Of a stretch of 41,715 nucleotides of DNA, positions 26,080-41,715 are shown piece by piece; positions within the stretch are counted from its first letter, which is position 1, and the number at the start of each line of letters is the position of its first letter. Below the pieces are notes generated by a model, which did no database searches, had not been told where the DNA came from, and worked only from the letters and a program-made list of their open reading frames with translations. The position numbers and the translations under genes are program-made. The DNA lies in the NCBI GenBank assembly GCA_026983775.1, contig JALSTK010000135.1, positions 1 through 41,715 of the forward strand. The letters run 5' to 3'. Origin of the DNA: Calditrichia bacterium (lineage in GTDB: Bacteria > Calditrichota > Calditrichia > Calditrichales > Calditrichaceae).

Positions 26080-27795
26080 TTATTCCGTCTTAAACTGGTT
26101 TACCAATTGGATAAGTGTCGTACTAAACTTAGCCAGCTGTTCTACATTGGTATGAATCGTTTCGCTATCCCGCACTACCTCTGCGCTGGATTCGGACACA
26201 TGTTGAATCTTTTGATTGGACTCTTCATTCTTGGCAGAAGAAGTTGCGATCATCCTGTTTATTTCATCCATCCCACTGGCTGCCTGGGTTATATTGGTAG
26301 CAATTTCTTTGGTAGTAACCGCCTGTTCTTCCACGGCAGTGGCTATTGTGTCTACGGTTTCGTCCACCTGATCCATTACCGAGTTAATATTTCCGATTTC
26401 CGAAATTGTCTTTTCTGTGGTCATCTGAATGGCTTCAATCTTCTGACGGATATCTTCGGTTGCTACGGCTGTTTGCCGGGCCAGTTCTTTCACTTCATTG
26501 GCCACTACAGCAAAACCTTTTCCGGCTTCTCCCGCCCTGGCTGCCTCTATGGTTGCATTTAATGCCAGGAGTTTGGTCTGGTCGGCAATTTCCTCAATCA
26601 TCTCCACAACACGATCTATCTGACTGGCCGCCTGCCCTAATTCACTCACTCGATCACCTGCGACACGGGCATTCTTAACGGCCTGCCCGGAAACAGACCT
26701 GGCTTTTTCAGCGCTGCGGGCAATCTCTCCGATAGTGGCCGTCATTTGTTCCGCCGATGAAGCAACTACGGTAATATTAGTTCCGGTCTGTTCGGCCGCA
26801 GCAGTTACAACCATCATCTCTTCCAACATTTTATCCGAGTTGGATACAATACCGGACGACATCTCTTGCATTCTCATGGAATTTTCCGAAAGACGTTCGG
26901 AAATTGTATTGAACTGATTCGAATTCTCATTTAAAGCCATGGCAGTCTGGATAATAGATTGAATAATTTTTCTCAGCTTTATGATAATATTATTAAAAGA
27001 TGAAGCTAATACACCTATTTCATCCTGGGACTTAGGATGCACAGAAACGGTTAAATCACCGATACCTATTTGTTCTGCCGCTTTGGCTAATTCTTCCAGA
27101 GGATCGGTTAATTTTTTGCCCAACCAGAACGCACCGATAAATATTACGAAAAAGACGATGATCCCGGTCAGCAAAAGAAGTTTGATAAAGGTATCGAGAG
27201 AATGATTCATTTGTATATTGGCCTGGTCGATTTCGTCCAGGTAAGCACCGGCACCGATCACCCAGCCCCATGGTTTAAAATAGGTAACGGCAGAAATTTT
27301 CATCCGGGTTCCGGTATCACCCCTGTTTTGCCAGGGATATTTTTGGAAGTACACCTGATCTCCGTTGAGATGTTCGGCTGATTGTATCATTTGCCGGATG
27401 AAAAAATGACCGTCGGCGTCTTTTGCCGACCAAATATTTTCACCGTCTCTCAACCTGTTTTTTGAAAGAATATAGGAACCTCGTTGCTTTCCTCTTGTCC
27501 CCAATATAAAAACATAACCCGAATGCCCTATGGCGATGCGGCTGATTTGTTCCTTCAACTTTTTCTGAACTCCGGCTAAATCGCGGCTATTTTCATTAAC
27601 AATTCTACACTGATCGTATACATCCCTGGCAATTGTTGAAATATATTGCTTTGTCTGTTGATCGAGTATGTTCCCAACCTTCTGTACTGTCGCCTTTTTT
27701 ACGGAGATACTGATCAGAATAAGAACCAGAATCGGAACGACGGTGGCCAAACCGGCGATTCCCATTAACTTGTGTATGATCTTTACATTTTTCAT
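26080..27795 (-). CDS. Methyl-accepting chemotaxis protein with single Cache domain
   Basis: 571 residues. TM1 lies at about 10-30, then a periplasmic single-Cache (sCache_2-type) ligand domain ([48 protein letters not shown], about 90-195), TM2 (about 206-228), a HAMP domain ([20 protein letters not shown]), and a signalling domain with the hairpin tip ([20 protein letters not shown]). There is no C-terminal NWETF-type CheR tether; it ends LVNQFKTE. It senses a small molecule and controls CheA. The specific ligand cannot be read from sequence. It is the only receptor in the window, embedded in the che run. Confidence 0.93.
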
Positions 27796-28126
27796 CGGAT
27801 TACCCTTCTATAAATAATATGTATTAAATCTATAATCTAAATTTTACTAAAAATCCTTTTCTGCTTGCTTAATAGTTTTATGTGTCCCCTTGATTTCAGA
27901 TACGGTGCGAAAATTCTTTCCCGCCTGTCCGGCCGTCATGAAACCACGGTGAGAACGACATTCCACTCTTGATTTCACAATTTCATCCGGTCTCTACATT
28001 CACGGGATACTATAGAGTTCATTCATTTAGGGACCCAGTCTGAAGAGATTCGTTGCATCCGGGAGCCTAAAATAGCTTCGTTAGAATAGTAACCCATAAT
28101 CATAAGCACATCTCTTTCCGTTTCAT
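27796..28126. other. Gene-free stretch upstream of the chemoreceptor gene
   Basis: 331 bp between cheW and the receptor gene. The part nearest the receptor is AT-rich and may hold its promoter, but no canonical sigma-70, sigma-28 or sigma-54 element is convincing. I see no RNA gene, long repeat or terminator. Confidence 0.4.
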
Positions 28127-28591
28127 TCAAATGGGATAGTCCATTTTATTTATTCGTGTTTCCGGATTAAGAATCTTATCTAAATCCAGTAAGGCTAACA
28201 GTTTTTCATCCATCATGTATATTCCCAAAAAGTAAGAAGAGACTTTGCGGTCAATATTGGAAGGCGTCGGCTGTATCTCTTCCGTCTTTGCATAAACAAT
28301 ATCCATCATCTTACCGATCAGCAACCCGACCGGTTCCCCTTGACTGTTCACAACCATAATTCGTCTGTTCGAATCATAATTCATAGATTCTAAAGCGAAT
28401 ATACGACGCAGATTCAGAATCGTGATTACTTGCCCACGCAGATTTGCGATGCCACTGACATACTGGGGCGCATTGTATACCGGAGTGATGGTTAAATGAT
28501 TTTTAATTTCCTGAATGTGCTCAACCGGTAGGGCACAGAAAATAGACCCGATTTCAAAAATGGCCAATTGTCGTTCTTCTGAATTTTTCAT
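28127..28591 (-). CDS. cheW: Chemotaxis coupling protein CheW
   Basis: 154 residues, full-length CheW fold: RQLAIFEIGSIFCALPVEHIQEI, TPVYNAPQYVSGIANLRGQVITILNLRRIF, RRIMVVNSQGEPVGLLIGKMMDIV, and the C-terminal SSYFLGIYMMDEKLLALLDLDKIL. It links the receptor to the CheA P5 domain. It follows cheA by 16 bp. Confidence 0.95.
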   Translation of the reverse strand: MKNSEERQLAIFEIGSIFCALPVEHIQEIKNHLTITPVYNAPQYVSGIANLRGQVITILNLRRIFALESMNYDSNRRIMVVNSQGEPVGLLIGKMMDIVYAKTEEIQPTPSNIDRKVSSYFLGIYMMDEKLLALLDLDKILNPETRINKMDYPI

Positions 28592-28607
28592 ATTTTATTC
28601 CTATTCA

Positions 28608-31600
28608 TCAACCCTGCAACGATCTGCCGTTTCGGATGAAATGTTGGACACGTTCCAGAATATGTTCCCTGTTCAGCTTAATCAGATATTCATCCATACC
28701 GGCTTTCCGAGCTCGTTGTTCGGCGGACTTACCTATGACGGTTGTGAGTGCAATAATCGGTAATTCATCAAAACGATGTTGCCTGCGAATCTTTTCCGTC
28801 ATACTCACTCCATCCAGATTAGGCATTTCAATATCCGTTAATATCAAACGAATGGGATGAACGGAACTCTCAAGTAATTCGGCCCCTTCAAGCCCATCTT
28901 TGGCAGTTAAGACCGTATATCCGGCTTGTTCGAGGAATCCTCTGATCTGCCTTCTGAAAAAACGAGAATCTTCAACCAATAAGACCGTATTTTCAGCATC
29001 CGATTCCGAATCCCGGGTCCATTCCGGCAGCAATTGAGAGACTATATCATAAAGATCAAGCAATAAAGTCGTTTGGTTGTTAATGACCGCCGAACCGAGG
29101 ATACCGCTTTGCCTGAAGCTTTCTTCATCCATTTTCATGTCAAAATCCACAACATCTATGATACGGGAAACCAGTAATCCAACTTCTTTATCGCCGTAAG
29201 GGAAAACGATCACAAAAAAAGTATTCAGATCGGCTATGGGTTTCACTTTTGCTACATCTTCAATGGAACAAAGAATCAGGCTCTTCCCGCGATAACGGAT
29301 GGTTTTTTTACCACCGGTTATCTCGATTTCCGATTTGTCAATTTTTTCGATCCTCGAAATCAACCCGAGCGGTACAGCGAATTGTTCGTTTTCCGCATTG
29401 TGTACCAATAGCATGGACTGCGTATCTTCAGGCCTTTCTTGTTTTTTTGGTAGAATCGTTTCTTCGACCTTTTTCTTAACCACTTTCATTTTCATGACCA
29501 TACCCATACCGATTACATCCAAAATAAGTGCTGCTTTCCCATCACCTAACAGGGTAGCGCCGGCATAGGTGGGTAACCTGTTAATATGCCGTCCCAGCGG
29601 TTTCACGACGATTTCTTCGTAATCAATTAGTTCATCAACCAATAGACCATAATTCAATTCTCCGGCATTAACTACAACGATTGTATAGGCGCTTCCGGGT
29701 GAAATACGGCGATCGGCCCGCTCTCTGCTCTTTTCATTCCGCTTCATAGATTCGTGCCCAGCAGCACTGTTTTTGATATCCTTACTTCGTCTGTCGATAA
29801 AAGTCTTCCGGCGGTCCGTTTTTTGCTCGCCTGTTTCCGGATCGATGAAAATACGGTGAATATTCAGCACATCCGAAATGCGAATCAGGGGCAACAATTC
29901 TCCCCTTAAACGTAACAGGGCCGAATGGTCGATACGTTGAATCCGTTTCTGAACTTCTTTCGCAGGAATACGTACCAGCTCAGCCACATTAATCTGTGGA
30001 ATGGCATAGCGTTCCGAAGCCACTCTTACGATCAGGCTGGGAATAATGGCCAGAGTCAACGGCAACTTAATATGTATGGTTGTGCCCATACCCACCGTAG
30101 ACTCCATATCGACCGAACCCCCGATTTTAGATAAATTACTATGCACTACATCCATCCCAACTCCCCGTCCGGATATTGCGGTGACTTTTTCCGCGGTGGA
30201 AAAGCCGGGACGGAAAATGAATCGCATCAGTTCGCTTTCGGGCATGGTTTCCAGAGCTGCCTTTTCCGCCAGTCCCATTTCCAGTATCTTTCGTTTGATC
30301 TTCTCAGGATCGATTCCGGCTCCGTCGTCCGTAATTTCAATATTCATCTGTCCTGCTTCATGGTAAGCGTGTAATCGGATGACAGCCGGAAGTTTTTTCC
30401 CGGCCTGTTTCCGTTTTTGCGGTGTCTCGATTCCATGATCCAGGGCATTTCGAATCAGATGTGTCAGAGGATCGGCGATGGCTTCTATTATGGTTTTATC
30501 AAGTTCTACGTCATCCCCTTCGATAACCAGTTCCACTTCTTTGCCGGCTTCTTTAGCCATATCATGAACAAGACGATGAAATTTAGAAAAAATCACACCG
30601 ATCGGCTGCATACGGGTAGCTATAATCGCTTCCTGCAATTCCGAAGTGAGCAAATTTATCTGATGAATGGTATAGGTTAGATTTGAATCTGGAACCGAAC
30701 TATATTCTTGTAACAATTGATTCCGGGTAAGTACCAATTCTCCGGCCAGATTCATTAAACGGTCAAGCAAATGCACCGACACACGCAGACTGCTGCTTTT
30801 AAAACTTATGTTCGGTTCTTTCCTTCCGACGCGGGGATTTTGGGAATAATTCTTCTCTTCAGAAGGGACGGAGGGGCCTTTTCCCTCATCATGCGCATCG
30901 GAACGTTTTTGCTCTTGCTTTTCCTTCTTCTCAGGGGAATACCCATCAACCGAATCGGGTCTGCCGATACATTTTAAACTATTATTATCCGTTAGCTGAT
31001 AGGTTTGGGAGGTATCCACTTTGACTAAAGTCGGGATAAAATTCGGTTCGAGCACTGTGGCATACAGAACATAGAAAGGAACCGCAGGAAGATCATCCAG
31101 ATGCTGCAGATCCGGAAGACTGCTCAGCTCTATTTTACTATTCAAATACATACCTGCTGCTTCTACCTCTTCTATAACATCCCCTGCCGTCCGATCTTTT
31201 TTATCCAGATCCTCGAGCCAGTCGAACAAGGTCACATACACAAAGCGGCCGCCGGTTTTGGCTGCGGCTAATTCCTGTCGGGAAATATTAAAAAGAACCT
31301 TGCCGTCCGGAAGACGAATTTCAATCTTGCTCCCTTCTGAAGTTAAGGAAGTAGTGCCCTGCGGATCGGATGAAAAAATTTGCAGGGTCTTCAACGGTTC
31401 ACTAATATCCATCCGTTCGCTTGAAGCGTAATTCTGAATTAAATCTTTTAAAACATCCACAGACGTGAGTAACGTACCGATTAATTTCGAATCGGGTAGC
31501 AAAGTCCCGTTACGCATACGGTTCAGAATATCTTCCATACTATGGGAAAGATTTTTGATGGTCTCGAATCCTAAAAAGGCCGCTCCGCCTTTTATGGAAT

Positions 31601-31751
31601 GAATGGCTCGGAAAACCTTGTTAATCCGTTCAGGATCGACTGCCTTCCCCTGCTTTTCAATTTCCAAGAAATCGGCTTCGATTCCATCCAAATGTTCGCC
31701 TGATTCCTCGATGAACAATTCAATCAGTTCCTGATCCTCCGAATAAGCCAT
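28608..31751 (-). CDS. cheA: Hybrid chemotaxis histidine kinase CheA with two CheW modules and a receiver
   Basis: 1047 residues, far longer than usual (about 650-700). An HPt domain with phospho-acceptor His 51 (FRAIHSIKGGAAFLGF); a second folded region about 125-260 (LPDGKVLFNIS, FVYVTLFDWLEDL) in place of a plain P2; a dimerisation helix pair from about 320 (LLDRLMNLAGELVLTRNQLL); an HATPase with HLIRNALDHGIETP (about 430), DDGAGIDPEKI and GRGVGMDVVHSNL; a CheW-like P5 (about 560-760) with a basic Arg/Lys-rich insert; a second CheW-like domain (about 770-905); and a C-terminal receiver (VLLVEDSRFFRR, LILTDIEMPN with Asp near 972). The receiver may act as a phosphate sink or modulator. It follows the STAS gene by 38 bp. 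Confidence 0.95.
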   Translation of the reverse strand: MAYSEDQELIELFIEESGEHLDGIEADFLEIEKQGKAVDPERINKVFRAIHSIKGGAAFLGFETIKNLSHSMEDILNRMRNGTLLPDSKLIGTLLTSVDVLKDLIQNYASSERMDISEPLKTLQIFSSDPQGTTSLTSEGSKIEIRLPDGKVLFNISRQELAAAKTGGRFVYVTLFDWLEDLDKKDRTAGDVIEEVEAAGMYLNSKIELSSLPDLQHLDDLPAVPFYVLYATVLEPNFIPTLVKVDTSQTYQLTDNNSLKCIGRPDSVDGYSPEKKEKQEQKRSDAHDEGKGPSVPSEEKNYSQNPRVGRKEPNISFKSSSLRVSVHLLDRLMNLAGELVLTRNQLLQEYSSVPDSNLTYTIHQINLLTSELQEAIIATRMQPIGVIFSKFHRLVHDMAKEAGKEVELVIEGDDVELDKTIIEAIADPLTHLIRNALDHGIETPQKRKQAGKKLPAVIRLHAYHEAGQMNIEITDDGAGIDPEKIKRKILEMGLAEKAALETMPESELMRFIFRPGFSTAEKVTAISGRGVGMDVVHSNLSKIGGSVDMESTVGMGTTIHIKLPLTLAIIPSLIVRVASERYAIPQINVAELVRIPAKEVQKRIQRIDHSALLRLRGELLPLIRISDVLNIHRIFIDPETGEQKTDRRKTFIDRRSKDIKNSAAGHESMKRNEKSRERADRRISPGSAYTIVVVNAGELNYGLLVDELIDYEEIVVKPLGRHINRLPTYAGATLLGDGKAALILDVIGMGMVMKMKVVKKKVEETILPKKQERPEDTQSMLLVHNAENEQFAVPLGLISRIEKIDKSEIEITGGKKTIRYRGKSLILCSIEDVAKVKPIADLNTFFVIVFPYGDKEVGLLVSRIIDVVDFDMKMDEESFRQSGILGSAVINNQTTLLLDLYDIVSQLLPEWTRDSESDAENTVLLVEDSRFFRRQIRGFLEQAGYTVLTAKDGLEGAELLESSVHPIRLILTDIEMPNLDGVSMTEKIRRQHRFDELPIIALTTVIGKSAEQRARKAGMDEYLIKLNREHILERVQHFIRNGRSLQG

Positions 31752-31789
31752 TTAATCGGCTCCCTGATACGTCATAGAATGATTCCATT

Positions 31790-32080
31790 CTACATGTGAT
31801 GAAAATATTGTTGCAGACCCGTTATATCCAGCAAGGTTCTCATAAAAGGAGAAAGTTTAACCAGTTCCATTTTCTTTTCGGAGGCAAGGCAGGATTTGTA
31901 AGTTGCCACTAAAACGGCAATCCCTTTGGCATCGATTTTCTGGATATTACTCAAATCGATTTTCAGATGCGTTTTACCTTCGTCCAGGATTTTTAAGACC
32001 CTCTCCTTGAAGCGATCCGCATTCCCGGCAGTAAAATTCTTCCCTATCCTGATCGTGGCTGGTTTTACCACCATTTCCAT
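31790..32080 (-). CDS. STAS-domain protein (anti-sigma-antagonist-like)
   Basis: 96 residues, a single STAS domain: TIRIGKNFTAGNADRFKERV, HLKIDLSNIQKIDAKGIAVLVATYK, KLSPFMRTLLDITGLQQYF. At the position where SpoIIAA-type proteins have the phosphorylated serine (IDSxG), this protein has alanine (IDAKG, about 51-55), so control by a partner kinase of the SpoIIAB type seems unlikely. STAS genes of this kind are often found in front of cheA genes. It is the first gene of the leftward chemotaxis run and has a 398-bp region before it. Confidence 0.85.
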   Translation of the reverse strand: MEMVVKPATIRIGKNFTAGNADRFKERVLKILDEGKTHLKIDLSNIQKIDAKGIAVLVATYKSCLASEKKMELVKLSPFMRTLLDITGLQQYFHHM

Positions 32081-32478
32081 TCCTTTTCAATTTTCGATCC
32101 TAAAAACTAATTAAACGTAAACACTCTTCTCTACCTTGGGAGCCGGTACAGCCCCTGGTAACGGAGTTTGCCATAGAAGCAAATTCTTCCCGTATATAAT
32201 CGAACATTTCAAAAGATAACTTTAGGCTGAATCCCCTCTTATTTCTCAACTTTAAACTGGAAAAAGGCCGTCCGGATACGTATATTTATGCCAAATTCAG
32301 CAACAGATTTTTTCTTGTGCCAAATCGACTAAGAAAATCCGATTCTTTCACCTACAGAGAATCAAAGATTTTCTACGTAAGCATGACACGTAATAAGGCT
32401 CTTTGCAAAACATCTATTGCCTGCTGAACAGGATAAGGAGAAAAGAGCCGATCACCATTTAACCGGGGAGAAATTAGT
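32081..32478. other. Divergent intergenic region between STAS and bTHX genes
   Basis: 398 bp that should contain leftward promoters for the chemotaxis run and rightward promoters for bTHX. A TTGGCAC (minus strand, plus-strand 32316-32322) has no -12 element at the right distance. A loose sigma-28-like pair exists at 32197-32224 but is weak. No RNA gene or long repeat is seen. Confidence 0.4.
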
Positions 32479-32577
32479 ATGGGGAAAGGAGATCGACGAA
32501 CCAGAAGGGGAAAAATCTACCGTGGTACAACCGGAAAAACACGTCGTAAAAAGAAACACGGCAAAGTAAAAAAATAA
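32479..32577 (+). CDS. Small ribosomal subunit protein bTHX
   Basis: A 32-residue, extremely basic peptide starting MGKGDRRTRRGKIYRGTTGK and ending HGKVKK. The MGKGD(K/R)(K/R)(T/S)RRGKI opening is the hallmark of the THX family of the 30S subunit, known from Thermus and widespread in Bacteroidetes and relatives; it is thought to stabilise the head of the 30S particle. An SD GGGGAG lies 8 bases upstream. It is transcribed toward uvrC, 185 bp away, and appears to stand alone. Confidence 0.85.
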   Translation: MGKGDRRTRRGKIYRGTTGKTRRKKKHGKVKK

Positions 32578-32762
32578 ATCTATATGATAAGAAGGCTGCC
32601 GGGCAGGAACGGATTGTTGGTCCTTCACAAAATATAATGCGGGGAAAAGCGTAAGATTATTTCGGCTTCCGGCTAAAAAGATAAATTCCGTATGGTATAG
32701 CGGGTTACATTGCTTTCACTGCCATATTGATTTCCTGCGCTTAAAATTCTATCTTCCTCTTT

Positions 32763-34601
32763 ATGATTAAACAGGTTCTAAAAGAAAAACTGGAACGCGT
32801 TCCTAACAGACCCGGATGTTATTTATTTAAAGATAAAAAGGGAAACATTCTCTATGTAGGCAAAGCCGGTTCTTTGCGCAATCGGGTGCGTTCTTATTTT
32901 CAATTATCCCGCTCCTCTCACCCCAAGTTAGAGGCCTTAGTCAGTCATATCGAACATATTGAATGGATTGTAACCGATTCGGAAGTGGAAGCCCTGATCC
33001 TGGAGAACAATCTCATTAAGGAGAATAAACCCCGCTATAATATCGATTTAAAAGACGATAAAAGCTATCCATACATCCGTATTACCCGAGAAGACTTTCC
33101 CCGCGTTTTTATAACCCGCACTCTGGTTCAGGACGGATCGGAATATTTTGGTCCCTATACCAATGTCAAAAATGTGCGCTTTACGCTGAAAACGCTTAAA
33201 CGTCTCTTCCCTCTTCGTTCCTGTAAATATGATTTAAATCCCCGGGTGATTGAGGATAAAAAAGTTCAGCTCTGTCTGGACTATTATATTAAAAAATGTA
33301 AAGGACCCTGTCAGGGCCTGCAAAGTCGCGCAGAGTACGGACAAATGATTGATCAGGTCCGACAATTTCTAAAGGGGAAAACCCAAGCGATCGTAAATCA
33401 ACTGAAAACCGAAATGGCCCGGCTTTCCGATCAGCTCGAATATGAAGAGGCCGCCCGGGTTCGGGATCGTATTGAAATTCTGGAAAACTACCGCAACACG
33501 CAGAAAGTCGTCATGACGGATTTCAAAGACCGGGATCTGGTCGGTATGGCCAGAGACGGGGACAATGCCTGTGCTGTAATCTTCAAAATACGCGAGGGGA
33601 AAATCATAAATCGCATTCATTTCTTTATGAAAAAAATTGCGGGCCAGAGCGACAGCGAAATTCTGGATTATTTTCTGAATCATTATTATTTAAGCACCGA
33701 AGACATTCCTCAGGATATTCTGGTATCCGAGGCCACGGAGAACCAAAAGATATTGGAAAAATTTTTAAATCGGAAATCCGCTCAAAGGGTTCATTTTATT
33801 CATCCTCAAATTGGCGACAAAAAGAAATTGATTGAAATGACGGTTAAAAATGCCAGATATTTAATCGAAGAAATAAAATTACAACAATTGAAAGCCAAAG
33901 AATACGTCCCTCATTCTGTGGCTTCATTGCAACGTGATCTCCGTTTAAACAAACTTCCCCGTCGTATAGAATGCTTTGATATTTCCAACATTCAGGGCAG
34001 CGATCCCGTAGCTTCGATGGTCTGTTTTGTGAACGGTAAACCCAAAAAGTCCGAATACCGGAAATTTAAAATACAGAGTAAAGAAACGCCGGACGATTTC
34101 GCCATGATGCAGGAAGCATTGACCAGAAGATACCGGAGAGTATTGGATGAAAAGCAAGAAATGCCGGACCTGATTGTGGTAGACGGCGGTAAGGGACAAT
34201 TGTCGAGTGCCCTGATGGCACTCGCCCGGTTGGGTTTGGACGGTAAAAAGCTGCCCATCCTTGGGCTGGCCAAGCGTCTGGAAGAAGTTTTCATCCCCGG
34301 TATAAAAGATTCGATCATGTTACCCCGCACCTCTTCCAGCCTGAAGCTGCTACAACAGATTCGCAATGAAGCCCACCGTTTTGCCATCACCTTTCATCGC
34401 CAGCGGAGAAGCAAACGCACGTTGCAATCTGAATTGGATGCCATTCCGGGTATTGGCCCTCATCGTAAAAAAGCGCTTCTAACCACTTTCGGCTCTGTAA
34501 AAAAAATCAAAGATCTCAGCAGAGAGGATTTAAGCGCATGCCCCTCTATCCCCCCCAAAATTGCCGAGGCGATCTTCAACCATTTCCACCCCGGGCGGTA
34601 A
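32763..34601 (+). CDS. uvrC: Excinuclease ABC subunit UvrC
   Basis: 612 residues, standard length. The GIY-YIG nuclease is at 14-95 (RPGCYLFKDKKGNILYVGKA), making the 3' incision. A cysteine set (SCKYDL ... CLDYYIKKCKGPC) matches the spacing C-x7-C-x3-C reported for an iron-sulfur site in UvrC. A UVR helix (LKTEMARLSDQLEYEEAARVRD) binds UvrB. The RNase H-like endonuclease region (IECFDISNIQGSDPVASMVCF, DLIVVDGGKGQL) makes the 5' incision, and two helix-hairpin-helix motifs (DAIPGIGPHRKKALLTTFGS) close the protein. It acts with UvrA/UvrB on bulky DNA damage. No strong ribosome site is visible before the ATG. Confidence 0.96.
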   Translation: MIKQVLKEKLERVPNRPGCYLFKDKKGNILYVGKAGSLRNRVRSYFQLSRSSHPKLEALVSHIEHIEWIVTDSEVEALILENNLIKENKPRYNIDLKDDKSYPYIRITREDFPRVFITRTLVQDGSEYFGPYTNVKNVRFTLKTLKRLFPLRSCKYDLNPRVIEDKKVQLCLDYYIKKCKGPCQGLQSRAEYGQMIDQVRQFLKGKTQAIVNQLKTEMARLSDQLEYEEAARVRDRIEILENYRNTQKVVMTDFKDRDLVGMARDGDNACAVIFKIREGKIINRIHFFMKKIAGQSDSEILDYFLNHYYLSTEDIPQDILVSEATENQKILEKFLNRKSAQRVHFIHPQIGDKKKLIEMTVKNARYLIEEIKLQQLKAKEYVPHSVASLQRDLRLNKLPRRIECFDISNIQGSDPVASMVCFVNGKPKKSEYRKFKIQSKETPDDFAMMQEALTRRYRRVLDEKQEMPDLIVVDGGKGQLSSALMALARLGLDGKKLPILGLAKRLEEVFIPGIKDSIMLPRTSSSLKLLQQIRNEAHRFAITFHRQRRSKRTLQSELDAIPGIGPHRKKALLTTFGSVKKIKDLSREDLSACPSIPPKIAEAIFNHFHPGR

Positions 34602-34761
34602 TCGGACTGCATATTTTTCGTATTGAACTGAAATGATGTCACAGTCCGCTGTCATTTTTTTCATAGCCAATCGAAAGATTGCTCTTTTAAATGATTTTAC
34701 AGGGTCTACCTCTATTTGGCAACTCATTATTTTTTAATTACTTACAAAATTTTCCCGAATT

Positions 34762-34778
34762 TTGGCACAACCCTTGTA
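34762..34778 (+). promoter_or_regulatory. Sigma-54-type (-24/-12) promoter before hsp20
   Basis: TTGGCACAACCCTTGTA matches TGGCAC-N5-TTGCW with exact spacing and the same single change (TTGTA) as the promoter before flgB. The predicted start is near 34789, giving a leader of about 44 bases to the hsp20 ATG, which is comfortable. A TATAAT at 34781-34786 is present, but its distance from any -35 is wrong for sigma-70. Confidence 0.6.
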
Positions 34779-34832
34779 TATATAATTGGCGAATTAGAAA
34801 ACAAAAAACCAAAAATAAGGAGGTGAGGTACC

Positions 34833-35279
34833 ATGACCTTAGTAAAATATAATCCCGTACGCAGTCTGTTCGACTTAAGAAGCAGTGTAGACCGTTTATT
34901 CGATGATTTCTTCGGCTTGGATCGGCCAACTTTACGTGAGCCGTCTTTGAATGTGGTTCCTGCCGTTGATCTGGAAGAGACCGGTGATGCTTTTAAGATT
35001 ACCGCTGAATTACCGGGAATGGATAAAAAAGATATTCAGATTACCTTTGAAAACAACGTATTGTCAATCAGCGGTGAAAAGAAAGCGGAGAAGGAAATTA
35101 AGGAAGAAAATTACCATCGGTTGGAGCGTAGTTACGGTAAATTTCATCGATCCTTCGAATTACCCGGTTACATCGATCGCGATAAGATCGAAGCCGATTA
35201 TAAAGACGGTATTTTGCATATAACCATTCCTAAAACCGAAGAAGCCAAACCGAAACAGATTGAAGTAAAGGTTAAATAA
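34833..35279 (+). CDS. Small heat shock protein Hsp20
   Basis: 148 residues. The N-terminal arm (LVKYNPVRSLFDLRSSVDRLFDDFF) leads into the alpha-crystallin domain (PAVDLEETGDAFKITAELPGMDKKDIQI, VLSISGEKKAEKE, RLERSYGKFHRSFELPGYID, ADYKDGILHITIPKTEEAKPK), and it ends in the IxV-type tail QIEVKVK. It is an ATP-independent holdase forming cytoplasmic oligomers. The ribosome site AAGGAGGTGA is near-perfect, suggesting strong expression. It is monocistronic, with its own promoter and terminator. Confidence 0.96.
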   Translation: MTLVKYNPVRSLFDLRSSVDRLFDDFFGLDRPTLREPSLNVVPAVDLEETGDAFKITAELPGMDKKDIQITFENNVLSISGEKKAEKEIKEENYHRLERSYGKFHRSFELPGYIDRDKIEADYKDGILHITIPKTEEAKPKQIEVKVK

Positions 35280-35300
35280 TCTGCTTCAGGAATAAGAAGA

Positions 35301-35330
35301 AGGCAGGAAAAAAATCCTGCCTTTTTTTTT
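35301..35330 (+). terminator. Intrinsic terminator after hsp20
   Basis: Stem AGGCAGGA / TCCTGCCT with an AAAAAA loop, followed by a run of eight T. It lies 21 bases after the hsp20 stop. Confidence 0.9.
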
Positions 35331-35555
35331 GTGAACCCAATGGATCATAGAATTCTTCCCATACTATATAAAAATCAGCTTGATGCCGAAAAATTTGATT
35401 CTTCTCCATAATTTTGTAAATTCAGGGCTTAATTATTCAGGGTATGATTTAACATAAGTCTATCGTTTTATGTAGTGAATTGATTAAGGCGGCCCTATAC
35501 GGATGTTATGGATTTCCACATGAAACGGAGACACCAATAAGGGACACAGTTGTTC
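35331..35555. other. Gene-free stretch before the tRNA-derived array
   Basis: 225 bp with no frame of note. It leads into the tandem array and shares with it only the last few bases (GTTC). The promoter of the tRNA-Ser transcript may lie here or within the array. Confidence 0.4.
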
Positions 35556-35838
35556 GGATGATTAGACGAATGGGTAAGTCATCCCGAAAATCGGGACGCC
35601 CTTCGCAACCCGGTCTTTTACACGGTAATCTTTGAATTTGCTATCCGTTCGGAGGATTAGACGAATGGGTAAGTCATCCCGAAAATCGGGACGCCTTTCG
35701 CACCCGGTCTTTTACACGGTAATCTTCGAATTTGCTATCCGTTCGGAGGATTAGGCGAATGGGTAAGTCACCCCGAAAATCGGGACGCCCTTCGCACCCG
35801 GTCTTTTACACGGTAATCTTTGAATTTGCTATCCGTTC
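35556..35838 (+). repeat. Three tandem degenerate copies of the tRNA-Ser 5' half
   Basis: Units at 35556-35650 (95 bp), 35651-35744 (94) and 35745-35838 (94), running directly into the intact tRNA-Ser at 35839. Each unit begins like that tRNA (GGAGGATTAG(A/G)CGAA, then GGTAAGTCA), then the anticodon arm is replaced by a palindrome (CCCGA-AAA-TCGGG), and CGCCCTTCG of the variable arm follows. The 3' half of the tRNA is missing; instead there is a 44-bp spacer containing TTTTACACGGTAATCTT that ends at the next unit. Similarity to the tRNA is highest in the third unit and lowest in the first (GGATGATTAGAC). No unit could fold into a functional tRNA: U33, the T-arm and the acceptor 3' strand are absent. 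Confidence 0.85.
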
Positions 35839-35923
35839 GGAGGATTAGGCTAACTGGTAAGTCAGCGGTCTTGAAAACCGCCGCCCTTCGGGCTTGGGGG
35901 TTCGAGTCCCTCATCCTCCGCCA
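35839..35923 (+). tRNA. tRNA-Ser (anticodon UGA)
   Basis: 85 nt including an encoded CCA. Acceptor GGAGGAT / ATCCTCC with discriminator G, anticodon stem GCGGT / ACCGC with loop CTTGAAA (anticodon TGA), a long class II variable arm (GCCC-TTCG-GGCT), and T-arm GGGGG-TTCGAGT-CCCTC. It follows the array of degenerate copies without a break. Confidence 0.93.
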
Positions 35924-35981
35924 GGGAATCTGAATATACAAAATACAATCGGTAGGGTAGATTCACAGCTATTTTTATAAC

Positions 35982-36072
35982 GGAGAGGTGGCCGAGCTGG
36001 CTGAAGGCGCTCGCCTGCTAAGCGAGTATAGGGGCAAAACCTCTATCCAGGGTTCGAATCCCTGCCTCTCCG
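35982..36072 (+). tRNA. tRNA-Ser (anticodon GCU)
   Basis: 91 nt. Acceptor GGAGAGG / CCTCTCC with discriminator G, anticodon stem CTCGC / GCGAG with loop CTGCTAA (anticodon GCT), a long variable arm (ATAGGGGCAAAACCTCTAT) and T-arm CAGGG-TTCGAAT-CCCTG. CCA is not encoded (GCAG follows). It lies 58 bp after tRNA-Ser(UGA), likely on the same transcript. Confidence 0.95.
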
Positions 36073-36077
36073 CAGCA

Positions 36078-36106
36078 AAGCCGGATATTTCTTCCGGCTT
36101 TTTTTT
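36078..36106 (+). terminator. Intrinsic terminator after the tRNA-Ser pair
   Basis: Stem AAGCCGGA / TCCGGCTT with a 7-base loop, then a T-run to 36106. It starts six bases after the tRNA-Ser(GCU) 3' end. Confidence 0.88.
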
Positions 36107-36184
36107 ATTCATATTTCTTCAATCGAATCTGTAAACCTCTGCAAGACTCACAAGGAAATCCGAAACCTGTCCGGGATTTTTAAT

Positions 36185-36484
36185 CTATTCCTGAAAACCA
36201 ATATTTTTGTCTTTATCGCCCTGACCATGCACCGTAATCTGGCCATATTGTGTTTCATATTTTTTTATATTATCCTGTAAGGCCATCAGCAGGGATTTGG
36301 CGTGTTGGGGGGCCATAATAATACGTGAATAGACCTTCGCCTTCTGGCGTCCGGGCAGAATCCGGGTAAAGTCAAAAACAAACTCGGCGGGCGAATGGGT
36401 AATTAAGACCAGATTACTATAGGTCCCTTCCGCTTCCTGATCGCCCAGTTCTATTTTAATCTGATTCTCAGCGGGATTATTCAT
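36185..36484 (-). CDS. DUF3467 family protein
   Basis: 99 residues from the ATG at 36484, chosen because CGGAG lies six bases upstream; a longer frame exists but its extra residues are not protein-like. It contains the DUF3467 pattern IKIELGDQEAEGTYSNLVLITHSPAEFVFDFTRILPGR-like residues, then VYSRIIMAPQHAKSLLMALQDNIKKYE. The family is small, cytoplasmic and of unknown function, widespread in bacteria. It is divergent from dnaG, with 131 bp between the starts. Confidence 0.88.
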   Translation of the reverse strand: MNNPAENQIKIELGDQEAEGTYSNLVLITHSPAEFVFDFTRILPGRQKAKVYSRIIMAPQHAKSLLMALQDNIKKYETQYGQITVHGQGDKDKNIGFQE

Positions 36485-36615
36485 TTTTTTCTCCGTTTTT
36501 ATGACGCATTTTAATAAGTTGACTTTATTTGTCAATTCTCTTTTGATTACGTAAATTTTATCCAATATAATCAATAAAAGCAAATTTTGAGATCAAGGAT
36601 AAAAACGTTTCCCCA

Positions 36616-38412
36616 ATGGCTAAGTTATCCGACGAAAAAATTGATGAAATTCGAAGTTCGGTAAATATTGTCCACTATATTTCCCAATTCATAAACCTGA
36701 AAAAGACCGGTAAAAACTATAAAGGACTCTGCCCTTTTCATACTGAAAAGACACCTTCTTTTGTAGTGAGTCCGGAAAAGCAAATATACCATTGTTTCGG
36801 CTGTGGAAAAGGCGGAAATATCTATACCTTTATTATGGACTATGAAAAACTCTCTTTTATGGAAGCGGTTAAAAAGGCTGCTGATTTTGCCGGTATTCTT
36901 TTACCGAAACCGGAATCGAATCCGGAACAGGCAGGTTATTTCGATCGGCTTTACGCAATGAATGAAACGGCTTGTCAGTTCTTCGAACAATCCCTTCAGC
37001 AAGAAAAAAATCAAAACTGGCTGCGATACCTACTGGATCGTCAACTTTCCCCTACTACCATCCAAAAATTCCGTCTCGGGTACGCTCCGGATTCGGATAA
37101 CGGATTGCAACAAGCTTTACAGGAAAAAAACTTTTCCCTTGAAGAGGTATCCAATCTGGGTCTGCTTCAGAAGCGGGATCAGGGTACGGGGTATTTTTCC
37201 AAATTCAGGCACCGGGTTATCTTCCCTTTTCATACTGTGGGTGGTAAGATCGTTGGTTTCGGGGGACGGAAACTACGCGAAACTCAGCAACCGAAATATT
37301 TAAATAGCCCGGAAAGTCCGATCTACAAAAAAGGTGAAATTCTTTACGGTTTGCATCAGGCGATTACTTCAATCAGGGAAAAGGGATTTGTTGTTCTGGT
37401 CGAGGGATATTTTGATCTGCTGCGGTTGGTAGAGAATCAATTTAAAAATGTAGTTGCTTCCAGCGGGACCGCCTTAACCGATATACAGGCCCGATTAATT
37501 CGCCGTTATACGAAAGACGTCTATATTTGTTATGACGGTGATGCCGCAGGTATTTCGGCAGCAATTCGCAACGCCCAAATATTGGAAAAGCAGGATCTGA
37601 ATGTCTTTATCGCGGCTCTTCCGGCAGGGGAAGATCCGGATACCTTTGTTTTAAAACACGGCATACAAGATTTTGAAGCAATTCTCAGCCGAAAACAATC
37701 TCCTATGGAATTCAGAATACATGCATTCCTTGAAACCACGCCCGGCGCGGCTATTGAAGTGAATAACCAATTTATTCAGAATATACTCGGGGATCTGGCC
37801 GAGCTAAAGAATCAGGTTAAAATCGGCCTTTATCTGCACCAATTATCCGAACAATTCCAAATCAATGAAACCCTGTTAGTTGAACAATTAAATCATCTGA
37901 AACGATACAAACAACGCTATCAGGATACTGCTAAAGAGCAACACCCTTCCAACCCGGGTTTCGTACGGACAGGAATGCACAAGGCTGAAGCCGGAATTAC
38001 CAGCCTTTTATTATCCGGTAACCAGGCCATCATTGATTATATCCGTGAAGAGGTTTCCCACGAATTATTCGAAAATCCCCCATACATCCGTATTTATGAA
38101 TTTACTATGCAGGATCTGGAGGAGACCGGACAGATTGATGCACAAAGATTACTGGAACATTTTCAGGATGATGAAGAGATTACCCAATTAATTTCGGAAA
38201 TTATGCTGCTCGAATACGGTGATGCCAAAAAATTCGCCACCGATTGTATCTTCCAACTAAAAAAGTGGCATTTAGAGAAACAATCGCGGGAAATCAGTGA
38301 ACTCATTCGTAAAGAAAAGAATTCGCCTGAGTCGGTTCTCCATTATAATCAGGAACTCATCCGGATCCGCAAAAAGATCCATGCCCTGGAAAAGAGCAGA
38401 CATGATCTGTGA
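36616..38412 (+). CDS. dnaG: DNA primase DnaG
   Basis: 598 residues. The N-terminal CHC2 zinc finger uses Cys39, His42, Cys60, Cys63 (CPFHTEKTPSF ... YHCFGCGKGGN). The catalytic core has HRVIFPFHTVGGKIVGFGGR and the Toprim motifs VLVEGYFDLLRL and YDGDAAGISAAIR. The C-terminal ~150 residues form the helicase-binding region. It makes RNA primers for replication. In many bacteria rpoD follows dnaG, but here a 405-bp gene-free stretch and a converging gene follow. Confidence 0.96.
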   Translation: MAKLSDEKIDEIRSSVNIVHYISQFINLKKTGKNYKGLCPFHTEKTPSFVVSPEKQIYHCFGCGKGGNIYTFIMDYEKLSFMEAVKKAADFAGILLPKPESNPEQAGYFDRLYAMNETACQFFEQSLQQEKNQNWLRYLLDRQLSPTTIQKFRLGYAPDSDNGLQQALQEKNFSLEEVSNLGLLQKRDQGTGYFSKFRHRVIFPFHTVGGKIVGFGGRKLRETQQPKYLNSPESPIYKKGEILYGLHQAITSIREKGFVVLVEGYFDLLRLVENQFKNVVASSGTALTDIQARLIRRYTKDVYICYDGDAAGISAAIRNAQILEKQDLNVFIAALPAGEDPDTFVLKHGIQDFEAILSRKQSPMEFRIHAFLETTPGAAIEVNNQFIQNILGDLAELKNQVKIGLYLHQLSEQFQINETLLVEQLNHLKRYKQRYQDTAKEQHPSNPGFVRTGMHKAEAGITSLLLSGNQAIIDYIREEVSHELFENPPYIRIYEFTMQDLEETGQIDAQRLLEHFQDDEEITQLISEIMLLEYGDAKKFATDCIFQLKKWHLEKQSREISELIRKEKNSPESVLHYNQELIRIRKKIHALEKSRHDL

Positions 38413-38817
38413 GTTTTTCGGATCCATACAGTAAATACTGCAGAGTTTGTAGCATATACATAATTAGGCTCTACAGGAATTCGTGTATTTAAAAACCGGA
38501 AATGGAATGGATGAAGTACACACTTTACGAATATTCATGAGAAGAACAGAGTGATCCGGACTACCCATCACTAAGGATAGTAAGAATTTTGATTTACCGC
38601 GAAGCGGTAAAAGAAACCGGGCATTTCTGCCGGATTATTTTAATCCAATGGCATTCGGAGATTTGCTGAAAAATACAAAACCGCCTCAATACCGTTATAA
38701 GAGTTCACTTTTATGATATTCGTGTTGATTCGTCAACAGATTTTAAACTGCTTCCTGAGCCGCGCCGGAACGGGAATTGTAAAATTGCTGTCAAATGCAG
38801 AGACTAAAAAAAATAAA
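38413..38817. other. Gene-free stretch between dnaG and the radical SAM gene
   Basis: 405 bp between two converging genes. It contains a perfect palindrome TTTACCGC-GAA-GCGGTAAA (38593-38611) and a CCGGGCA-TTTC-TGCCGG hairpin (about 38617-38633) followed by ATTATTTT, a possible weak terminator. No RNA gene or protein-like frame is seen. Confidence 0.45.
38593..38611. repeat. Perfect GAA-loop palindrome
   Basis: TTTACCGC-GAA-GCGGTAAA, an 8-bp stem with a 3-base loop. The centre GCGAAGC is the known very stable DNA mini-hairpin. It resembles ACCGC-AAA-GCGGT at 23549-23561. Confidence 0.5.
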
Positions 38818-39849
38818 TTATTTCCATACCCCGGGAATTTTTTGACCACATTTTGCGCAATGCCCCTCCTTGATGTTATTAGTATAAATACTATGCCAAT
38901 CCCGTTCAATTAAGGCTGCATGGCAGTTGGGACAGAAGGTCGTTTGCCCCGGAACATCACGAACATTACCCACATAGCAGAAATGAATACCTGCATCCAA
39001 AGCTATTTTTCTGGCCCGGGTCAAAGTGGAATGGGGAGTCGGCGGATGATCCAGCATACGGAATGAGGGATGAAAAGCTGTGAAATGAATCGGTACATCA
39101 GCCCCTAAATTTGATAATATCCAACCGATCATTTGTTTGATCTCTTCATCCGAATCGTTTTCACCGGGAATAAGAAGGGTGGTAATTTCCAGCCAAACAT
39201 CCGTTTCGTGTACCAGCCATTTCAGCGTATCAAGCACCGGAGCCAAATGACTCAGAGTCAGTTTGCTGTAAAAGCGTTCCGTAAAGGCCTTTAAGTCTAC
39301 ATTGGCCGCATCCACGAATCGAAACACATCCTTGCGGGCTTCGGGATCAATATACCCATTGGTGACCATGACCGAACGAATATGCTCTTCCCTGGCCAGT
39401 CTGGAAATATCAACCACATATTCACCGAATATGATGGGGTCATTGTAGGTATAGGCAATGGAGGGAACCTGATGTTTCCTGGCAAGCTCAACTACCTGTT
39501 CGGGCGAGGCATAAAGAGAATTGACCTCATCCAGGTGGGCCTTACTCATGGTCCAGTTTTGACAAAATTTGCAACCTAAATTACAACCTGCTGTCCCAAA
39601 ACTTAAAATACCCGTTCCCGGTAAAAAATGATTTAACGGTTTCTTTTCAATAGGATCGATGGCAAAACCGGTAGGACGACCGTAACCGAGAGAGTACAGT
39701 TTACCGTCGATATTTTTACGAATATAACAGAAGCCGGACTGCCCTTCCCCTATTTTACAATAACGGGGACAAAGGGTACAGAGCAAACGATCATGATCCG
39801 TTTCCTGCCACCAGAGCGCCGAATGAAAATTTTGATTGAGCATAGTCAT
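38818..39849 (-). CDS. amrS: AmmeMemoRadiSam-type radical SAM enzyme
   Basis: 343 residues. An N-terminal cysteine group (Cys24, 27, 31, 41), the radical SAM motif Cys89-x3-Cys93-x2-Cys96 (GCNLGCKFCQNW), IAYTYNDPIIFGEYVVDI, VTNGYIDPEA, VDLKAF, TTLLIPGENDS, PIHFTAFHPSFRM, VGNVRD, and a C-terminal zinc-ribbon-like cysteine set (CPNC ... CAKC). It is related to pyruvate formate-lyase-activating enzymes. The group is usually encoded beside Memo and AMMECR1 genes; neither is in the window. Substrate and function are unknown. Confidence 0.9.
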   Translation of the reverse strand: MTMLNQNFHSALWWQETDHDRLLCTLCPRYCKIGEGQSGFCYIRKNIDGKLYSLGYGRPTGFAIDPIEKKPLNHFLPGTGILSFGTAGCNLGCKFCQNWTMSKAHLDEVNSLYASPEQVVELARKHQVPSIAYTYNDPIIFGEYVVDISRLAREEHIRSVMVTNGYIDPEARKDVFRFVDAANVDLKAFTERFYSKLTLSHLAPVLDTLKWLVHETDVWLEITTLLIPGENDSDEEIKQMIGWILSNLGADVPIHFTAFHPSFRMLDHPPTPHSTLTRARKIALDAGIHFCYVGNVRDVPGQTTFCPNCHAALIERDWHSIYTNNIKEGHCAKCGQKIPGVWK

Positions 39850-39909
39850 GATATTTTAATTCTATTAATTTTTAACTATCCGTCCACTGAATGTTCCGGA
39901 AAAATTTTC

Positions 39910-41715
39910 CTATCTATTTTTCAGTAGTAAAGCATTGAACAGTAATTTGAATGTTCCTTGCGTTGAGCCCCGAAACTGGGGATTAAAAGCGTAAAGAATC
40001 AATTGACCCTTTCCCTTTTTAAGCCAGACCATGGCGCTTTTATTCGAAAGCATTTTCTGTTTTTCTGCATAGCCGCTAAGTAATAAATCACCATCCGGGA
40101 ACCAGCCGATTACTCGACGATCCATATCAAAATGGGGAATGGAGGTGGTAAAAACAGGGTGGCCGCGATAAAAGATACCCACCTCGTCCGGTAATCCCAG
40201 GGTAAGAGGATGATGCTTTTTAAGTTTCATCCGGATCAGTGATCCGGGAATATACAGACCCTCTTTGTTCAAATTCTTCGAAATATCTTGTACCGGAAGC
40301 TGAAAATTTTCTTTGTTCTTTTTAGACCACCGGATTTCCTTAGCTCCCATAAAAAGGCCGGTTGAACGACCCCAGGAAAGTATACGACCTCCTTCGCTGA
40401 GAAACTTTAAAAGCTTTTCCAGTCCTTTTTTGCCAATCCCTTTGGTAAATTCGGGGGGATAGGAAGGGATATAGTATTCATTACCGGACTTCCACTTCCC
40501 TTCCATCAGAACCGACTTGTCCGCATCGGGAAAGACAACCACATCAAATTTCTTATTAAAATCGATCGCTTCAAAATCACCCGGATGCAGGACGGTATAG
40601 GGGATATGATATTGATCGAAAATGAAACGGGTCCAACCGGCGTCCATATCATGAAAATAGGTCTCAACCAGCGCAATACGCGGCAGGCGCAAAGCCGAAG
40701 ATTCAAATTTGACCGGTGCCTTGAGAAAAATAGGCTGAACTGTTAACAGGGCTTCCAGCTTTTTTAACTTTGATCCCGTAGCACCTGAGGTCATTATAAT
40801 GAAACTGCCGTCGTTAACTTTGGTATCGTTAAAATCCGTAATCTTATCGAGACGTTTTACCTGTAATCCCAAACGTGAGGCATAAAAAGCGATTTTATAA
40901 CTTTCATTCTCAGATACGGGAAGAACCATAGCCCAATATGAATCGGGTACGGATTTCAGCAACGAATAGTTGTCTTCAATCGGTTTTAGTTCCGAAGAAA
41001 ATCCGGCAACGGGCCGGTTTACCTCTACACATTCCAATCCCCGATGCAAAGGGAGAGACCAACTGGTGATATCATAAGGACGAATTAATTTGCCGTCAGG
41101 TGTATAATGCCTCTCCGGAAACTTCTGTCGTTCCATTACTTCCTTTATGAAAGCCCGGAAAGGCTGAGCTAAAGGTACAACGATATCGCCGGCATGAAAT
41201 GTGCGCGAAGCAATGACTTGATCCGACTGTAAGCGATAAACGTTCACACCCTGCTCATTCAGTAAATGGACCAAATCAACCAGTTCCGATTGATCTTTTT
41301 GCTTCTGAGGCAGAATATAATAAAAGGGCGGCTTGCTTTTTCCTTTTTGTACTTCACGTTTACAAAGTGTATTTCTAAGACGCAATATTTCTTTTTTATG
41401 CAGGGCCGCTGTTTTTAAAATGGATTTGGTAGAAACAATTTCATATTGAACAATATCCGACAAGCGCCACCAGCCCCCTTTCCAGGGCAGGGTCATATTA
41501 ATGCTCTTCTTGTACTCGGATAACCCCTTTCCACCCACACTCAATTCGGTCGGTTCTACATAAACAGGAGTTGCATAATCGGCACTGGAACATTCGGTTA
41601 ACATGCCGATTACATTCTTCCATAGACAGGTTTCGGTAGAACCGGGCCAATAGTCATCAAAGATATAATGCTGGGAGATACCTGCCAATCCGGCCCTGGT
41701 CATATCCTTGGCCAG
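39910..41715 (-). CDS. M14-family zinc carboxypeptidase, C-terminal part (partial)
   Basis: At least 601 residues; the frame is open through the right edge. The seen portion contains the late part of the M14 domain region (GLAGISQHYIFDDYWPGSTETCLW, MLTECSSADYATPVYV) and the long C-terminal region typical of secreted ~850-residue M14-like proteins: SRTFHAGDIVVPLAQPFRAFIKEVMERQ, DITSWSLPLHRGLECVEV, and a glutamine-amidotransferase-like region (RIALVETYFHDMDAGWTRFIFDQY ... IPSYPPEFTKGIGKKGLEKLLKFL). The zinc ligands would lie in the missing N-terminal part. It is probably an exported peptidase or peptide-binding protein, and is 60 bp upstream of the radical SAM gene on the same strand. Confidence 0.85.
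   Translation of the reverse strand: MAKDMTRAGLAGISQHYIFDDYWPGSTETCLWKNVIGMLTECSSADYATPVYVEPTELSVGGKGLSEYKKSINMTLPWKGGWWRLSDIVQYEIVSTKSILKTAALHKKEILRLRNTLCKREVQKGKSKPPFYYILPQKQKDQSELVDLVHLLNEQGVNVYRLQSDQVIASRTFHAGDIVVPLAQPFRAFIKEVMERQKFPERHYTPDGKLIRPYDITSWSLPLHRGLECVEVNRPVAGFSSELKPIEDNYSLLKSVPDSYWAMVLPVSENESYKIAFYASRLGLQVKRLDKITDFNDTKVNDGSFIIMTSGATGSKLKKLEALLTVQPIFLKAPVKFESSALRLPRIALVETYFHDMDAGWTRFIFDQYHIPYTVLHPGDFEAIDFNKKFDVVVFPDADKSVLMEGKWKSGNEYYIPSYPPEFTKGIGKKGLEKLLKFLSEGGRILSWGRSTGLFMGAKEIRWSKKNKENFQLPVQDISKNLNKEGLYIPGSLIRMKLKKHHPLTLGLPDEVGIFYRGHPVFTTSIPHFDMDRRVIGWFPDGDLLLSGYAEKQKMLSNKSAMVWLKKGKGQLILYAFNPQFRGSTQGTFKLLFNALLLKNR

Follow-up and report, generated by a model that had tools for sequence, protein, structure and literature searches.

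A tandem array of palindrome-broken tRNA-Ser copies in a Calditrichia bacterium, a probable footprint of a tRNA-homing GIY-YIG element

The stretch of DNA analyzed here (the window, 41,715 nucleotides) is contig C135 of its own assembly, G000, which comprises 4.03 Mb in 179 contigs. It carries a pair of intact serine tRNA genes on the plus strand, tRNA-Ser(UGA) (35839..35923) and its partner tRNA-Ser(GCU) (35982..36073), both identified with ARAGORN and Rfam. TRF detected a tandem array at 35552-35864 with a period of 94 and 94% matches. The array resolves into three plus-strand units, located head-to-tail right before the intact tRNA-Ser(UGA) gene, which is their source: unit 1 (35556..35650, 95 bp), unit 2 (35651..35744, 94 bp), and unit 3 (35745..35838, 94 bp). 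TRF, the coordinates, and the alignment of the units all agree with the arrangement given in the original prediction. Each unit begins with a copy of tRNA positions 1-26, identical to the gene at 21, 22, and 23 of the 26 positions in units 1, 2, and 3, respectively. A palindrome, to which no strand is assigned, follows in each unit: TCCCGAAAATCGGGA in units 1 (35582..35596) and 2 (35677..35691), and CCCCGAAAATCGGGA in unit 3 (35771..35785). With the anticodon placed at position 34 by ARAGORN, the palindrome is an exact substitute for the whole anticodon arm, positions 27-43, in all three units, as had been proposed. The further proposal that a common spacer replaces the 3' half was right about the spacer but overlooked approximately 9 nt of tRNA-like sequence, the variable arm (CGCCCTTCG), which is retained 3' of the palindrome. 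The spacer also precedes the intact tRNA-Ser(UGA) gene, into which it continues from unit 3. The units have neither a T-arm nor a 3' acceptor strand.

The three units were found to be alike over their full length, as predicted, with pairwise identities of 95.7-95.8%. Three changes in the D-loop are common to all of them and absent from the intact gene, so the units are most simply explained by one altered copy that was later multiplied. Of the suggested stepwise duplication from the tRNA, the tandem duplication stands, while the stepwise decay with distance was based on two positions; the gradient in tRNA-likeness amounts to a single base per unit and is not found in the unit-to-unit distances. 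The only GIY-YIG open reading frame (ORF) at the locus is the housekeeping gene uvrC (32763-34601). Reading through the ORF list revealed no integrase-like ORF at 27000-41715, and Rfam reported only the two tRNAs in the window, with no match to rtT (RF00391).

A search of related genomes for an array at tRNA-Ser(UGA), as the original prediction had advised, uncovered a comparable array of 5 x 104 bp in G001, a member of the same family (4,978,541 bases; 45.3% G+C in a 400 kb sample). Because the G001 genome is a single contig and the array lies at the same tRNA, chance and assembly artefact can be ruled out for the window array. No array was found at this gene in G006, nor in G003, which belongs to the genus of G001 and has similar sequence upstream of tRNA-Ser(UGA); the absence in G003 indicates that arrays are gained and lost within a genus. 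When arrays were compared across genera, the tRNA part and the palindrome matched and nothing else did. This restricted match, together with the lack of an array beside this gene in other genera and in one member of the G001 genus, speaks against the selective conservation that had been considered.

Broken copies were not confined to tRNA-Ser(UGA). Self-comparison of tRNA loci revealed same-strand partial copies of Ser(UGA), Glu(UUC), Val(CAC), Gly, and Cys genes in G000, and of Ser(UGA), Ser(GCU), Ser(CGA), Glu(UUC), Glu(CUC), Cys, and Asn genes in G001. Across G000 and its Calditrichota relatives, broken copies occur at many tRNA genes, including those for Ser, Glu, Val, Cys, Asp, and Asn. 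Copies located upstream contain the 5' part with a leader, and those located downstream contain the 3' part with a terminator. Nearly all copies examined contain a palindrome, usually of the form TCCC..GGGA, in the anticodon arm, the T-loop, or the D-loop; the exceptions include a degenerate Asp remnant at L082 of G000. The palindrome sequence differs among genomes and among arrays. The second gene of the serine pair, tRNA-Ser(GCU), is accompanied elsewhere by broken copies (G001, G002, and G003) or by a GIY-YIG ORF (G021). Most of the genomes compared are draft assemblies, which break at these repeats. In G000 itself, tRNA-Ser(GGA) lies near two contig ends (L054 on C154 and L055 on C133), each time followed by a degraded Ser-like stretch.

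We searched for a D-arm followed by TCCCG..CGGGA in 40 Calditrichota genomes and obtained 29 matches, located in 13 of the genomes, versus 1 match with a reversed control. The pattern was matched in only 5 of 149 Bacteroidia genomes, which makes the trait less common in that group than among Calditrichota (13 of 40). Among the matches listed from public genomes, which were mostly chance sites, clear cases were found in Bacteroidota, Ignavibacteria, and CPR lineages, as well as in an Armatimonadetes bin and an Acidobacteriia genome. At L180 (Met), L181 (Gln), L214 (Pro), and L220 (Gly), a palindrome again takes the place of precisely positions 27-43; as the search pattern itself demands a palindrome at the place of the anticodon arm, these cases are evidence of exactness and spread rather than of frequency. 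The exact pattern of the window units had no match in the genome contig collection. In viral contigs, the D-arm and palindrome matches were ordinary tRNAs and chance sites, apart from two array-like cases, one of which has a GIY-YIG ORF. One IMG/VR contig (L371) combines a tRNA-Lys gene, a palindrome-broken copy, and a GIY-YIG ORF, and could be either phage or mis-binned host DNA.

In relatives, the broken copies are found together with a nuclease gene. The complete arrangement consists of a single-domain GIY-YIG gene of approximately 80 codons, an intact tRNA gene, and a same-strand partial tRNA copy in which a TCCC..GGGA palindrome interrupts the anticodon, T, or D arm. At L180, L181, L214, and L220, the broken copy leads directly into a small GIY-YIG ORF, which is followed by the intact tRNA, and tandem ORF-bearing units were found in G006 and G019. 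In a set of pattern matches picked without regard to proteins, a GIY-YIG ORF at a distance of at most 600 bp accompanied 11 of 24 tRNA-linked matches and 6 of 96 others (p=1.3e-5). The six others came from L201 and L263; L263 holds five units and is thus an array itself.

A protein search with a nuclease profile of the tRNA type, built from tRNA-linked proteins, gave a match in 28 of the 40 Calditrichota genomes. Strong matches (at least 72 bits, a split placed at a score gap after the scores had been seen) lay within 600 bp of a tRNA gene in 41 of 55 cases, versus 1 of 19 weak matches (p=9e-8), and the proportion was 31 of 42 in genomes that had given no query. All 41 of the tRNA-adjacent strong matches were on the strand of the tRNA, several at a distance of just 1-4 bp, and 11 of the 14 non-adjacent ones were within approximately 210 bp of a contig end. 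Two pairs of G000 loci may be recorded here. Two contig ends (L131 on C69 and L303 on C42) together bear three or more GIY-YIG copies accompanied by Glu-derived units, which are probably one array split by the assembly. Two further GIY-YIG copies (L296 on C133 and L082 on C130) have nearly identical flanks, one copy being at tRNA-Asp and the other away from any tRNA found, with an Asp-like piece (ACGCAGAAA), which suggests movement or segmental copying.

The nuclease fold is clearly GIY-YIG according to Pfam, and residues Y5, Y16, G18, R26, H30, and E62, which we take to be the positions expected of a working GIY-YIG active site, are invariant in the aligned tRNA-type ORFs. We constructed a nuclease tree and compared it with the isotype of the adjacent tRNA. 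With the adjacent Cys and Leu(UAA) genes merged, isotype required 10 changes on the tree (against a minimum of 8, a shuffled mean of 27, and a lowest shuffled value of 22), and without merging 13 versus a shuffled 28, while host family required 15 (minimum 5; shuffled mean 22); the tree is based on 74 columns and many of its forks are weak. The nuclease lineages are thus specific to tRNA isotypes. UPF0213 and SLX1-type proteins share the fold family, and the nearest solved structures are 1zg2, 1ywl, and SLX1. However, these genomes also have housekeeping-like copies, which are longer, group in a clade of their own (96/83), and do not lie close to tRNA genes. Phage and plasmid collections yielded no close relative of the nuclease.

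The window array can be linked to this nuclease arrangement through loci where units with and without an ORF occur together. At the Val locus of G005 (L527), ORF-less upstream units and an ORF-bearing downstream unit have an identical palindrome (TCCCGATTTTCAATCGGGA), and the Glu locus of G000 (L131) is arranged in this way too, its palindromes being closely similar. For the tRNA type of the window, a nuclease ORF lies 21 bp downstream of tRNA-Ser(UGA) in G037 and between Ser(GCU) and Ser(UGA) in G021. No Ser-lineage nuclease ORF was found in G000, whose tRNA-type ORFs belong to the Glu, Cys, and Asp lineages. As the window locus has no such ORF either, the best interpretation of its array is that of a relic or a non-autonomous form. 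Among the possibilities originally raised, traces of integration at the tRNA came nearest, in that the same type of unit bears a nuclease ORF in relatives.

We therefore consider it fairly probable that the window array was left by a small tRNA-homing GIY-YIG mobile element, as a footprint without the ORF. Building on the observed anatomy, recurrence, nuclease association, isotype specificity, and presence/absence variation, we infer the cleavage, the mobility, and the origin of the array as follows. The nuclease would cut tRNA genes of a single isotype, recombinational repair would copy the element in, and repeated repair would amplify broken-copy units in tandem. The palindrome would disable the spare copy as a tRNA and probably make it uncuttable, and an element with a spare copy that is both useless and probably uncuttable could persist while one good tRNA survives. 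If cutting of the spare copy is blocked, so might be the deletion of the ORF by annealing between the repeats. At the window, a Ser-lineage ORF would have been lost or never have been there, leaving the amplified broken copies alone. By a smaller degree, we also favor the broader proposal of a widespread class of chromosomal mobile elements in which each GIY-YIG lineage homes on one tRNA isotype and inserts beside the gene without destroying the tRNA, the spare copy being palindrome-broken, with ORF-less tandem arrays as the non-autonomous or relic form.

The closest functional parallel is SegB of phage T6, which breaks DNA within tRNA genes at the motif RAWTSGAAC, has no isotype preference, and is required for tandem recombinational amplification of the tRNA-segB segment (PMC13096335). 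Like the gene for SegB, a free-standing GIY-YIG homing endonuclease of the tRNA clusters of phages T4 and T6, the nuclease gene lies beside tRNA genes and is accompanied by tandem tRNA-containing segments; nuclease genes are enriched beside tRNA genes in Calditrichota. By our own reading, the other strand of the SegB motif, GTTCSAWTY, fits the T-loop, which is the insertion point of several palindromes here, placed exactly at GTTC^GA. Unlike SegB, the elements are chromosomal, their tRNA copies are palindrome-broken, and each nuclease lineage is tied to one isotype. A search with the Ser(CGA) protein of G001 retrieved no T4-type phage at E values of up to 0.001, and with no kinship to SegB in this search we propose that the nuclease would work like SegB and not that it is a SegB. 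The window was not itself assigned as a SegB-like locus, since it has no GIY-YIG gene of this type, which comparable loci in relatives do have. Besides the missing ORF at the window and the lack of sequence kinship with SegB, two points stand against the homing interpretation: the T-loop motif is intact in several downstream copies (Val in G000, G005, and G007), so that a SegB-type site can survive the palindrome, and the intact tRNA of the donor should be a target of cutting too.

Short palindromes inserted in genes, RNA genes included, are known from the Rickettsia palindromic elements (RPE) and REP/RAYT systems, and the palindrome might be a separate small element of this sort that enters structured-RNA genes and is tolerated in tandem tRNA duplicates, with the GIY-YIG gene as a second, independent parasite of tRNA loci. 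The variability of the palindrome between genomes and arrays is consistent with this, as are TCCCG-stem palindromes in G001. Three peripheral TCCCG..CGGGA hairpins, one within a stretch inserted relative to the RF00010 consensus, are found there in the RNase P RNA gene (L159:7245-7664; RF00010, 243 bits), and TCCCG stems occur elsewhere in G001 as well. However, only 10 TCCCG stems were found in the 400 kb sample of G001, three of them in rnpB, and whole arms are replaced, which is unlike random landing. The exact window palindrome is undispersed: G000 has six copies, five in two tRNA arrays and one within a coding frame, and on this basis we rejected a dispersed RPE/REP-type repeat. In addition, ORF-bearing and ORF-less units share a palindrome at the one Val locus of G005, and the palindromes here, in contrast to RPE and REP/RAYT, are mainly in partial tRNA copies, vary in sequence, and are linked to a GIY-YIG gene where those systems have a Y1 transposase. 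We regard a separate element as unlikely. A long inverted repeat (..CCCCCTCTCCCGATTTTCGGGAGAGGGGG..) is dispersed in G001 with related flanks at four sampled places (L148:15454, L151:16341, L156:2300, and L164:631) and is perhaps a separate palindromic element. An ORF starting MARPLRLEFPGAFYHITSRG just after the tRNA-Ser pair of G012 (L051, approximately 1990-2100) looks by eye like a REP-associated Y1 transposase.

The units could alternatively be functional, as decoys or small RNAs transcribed with the tRNA or as regulators of its processing. Their upstream position on the same strand would permit co-transcription, and they have kept the D-arm and a hairpin while staying approximately 96% alike. 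This explanation, which includes the RNA processing and decoys of the original prediction, is quite improbable given the absent T-arm and 3' acceptor strand and the variation of spacer, palindrome, and insertion point from genus to genus, with no array at all at the tRNA in G003 and G006. An unpaired centre is missing from several related palindromes, including those of L181, L214, and L220 (for example TCCCGATGGCCATCGGGA), and this indicates symmetry at the DNA level more than a loop in RNA. We give similarly little weight to plain replication slippage that multiplied one dead tRNA copy with no element involved. It accords with the likeness of the units and the absence of a nuclease ORF at the window site but leaves unexplained why such copies recur at many isotypes, why almost all of those examined contain a palindrome, and why a nuclease is associated with them. 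Scars of a tyrosine-integrase island or prophage might be expected at a tRNA gene, the usual site of such integration, and islands of C. abyssi frequently adjoin tRNA genes (PMC5317091). This origin is very improbable and was rejected for the window, where the units repeat a 5' part with a replaced anticodon arm and not an unbroken tRNA 3' end, no integrase-like ORF accompanies them in the ORF list for 27000-41715, and the companion gene of such units elsewhere is a GIY-YIG gene. The tandem units of the E. coli tyrT locus, 178-bp repeats associated with rtT RNA (RF00391), similarly each contain a piece of the adjacent tRNA gene. However, the tyrT repeats are located downstream and contain the 3' end of the tRNA, whereas the window units are upstream of the gene, combine its 5' part with a palindrome, and have no RF00391 match; an rtT/tyrT-type repeat was therefore rejected.

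Small selfish tRNA-gene nuclease elements of the kind proposed here are apparently a family undescribed so far, as open-licence PMC papers yielded no direct earlier description of bacterial tRNA-linked GIY-YIG elements, and the same held for the rtT literature. If the homing interpretation is correct, it would explain the dead tandem tRNA copies with palindromes and the contig breaks at tRNA genes in many environmental genomes, and it would add a chromosomal family of isotype-specific tRNA-targeting nucleases to those of phages. The elements would then provide a system for understanding how a selfish nuclease can exploit an essential gene and yet leave its host alive, the natural arrays being a record of its activity.
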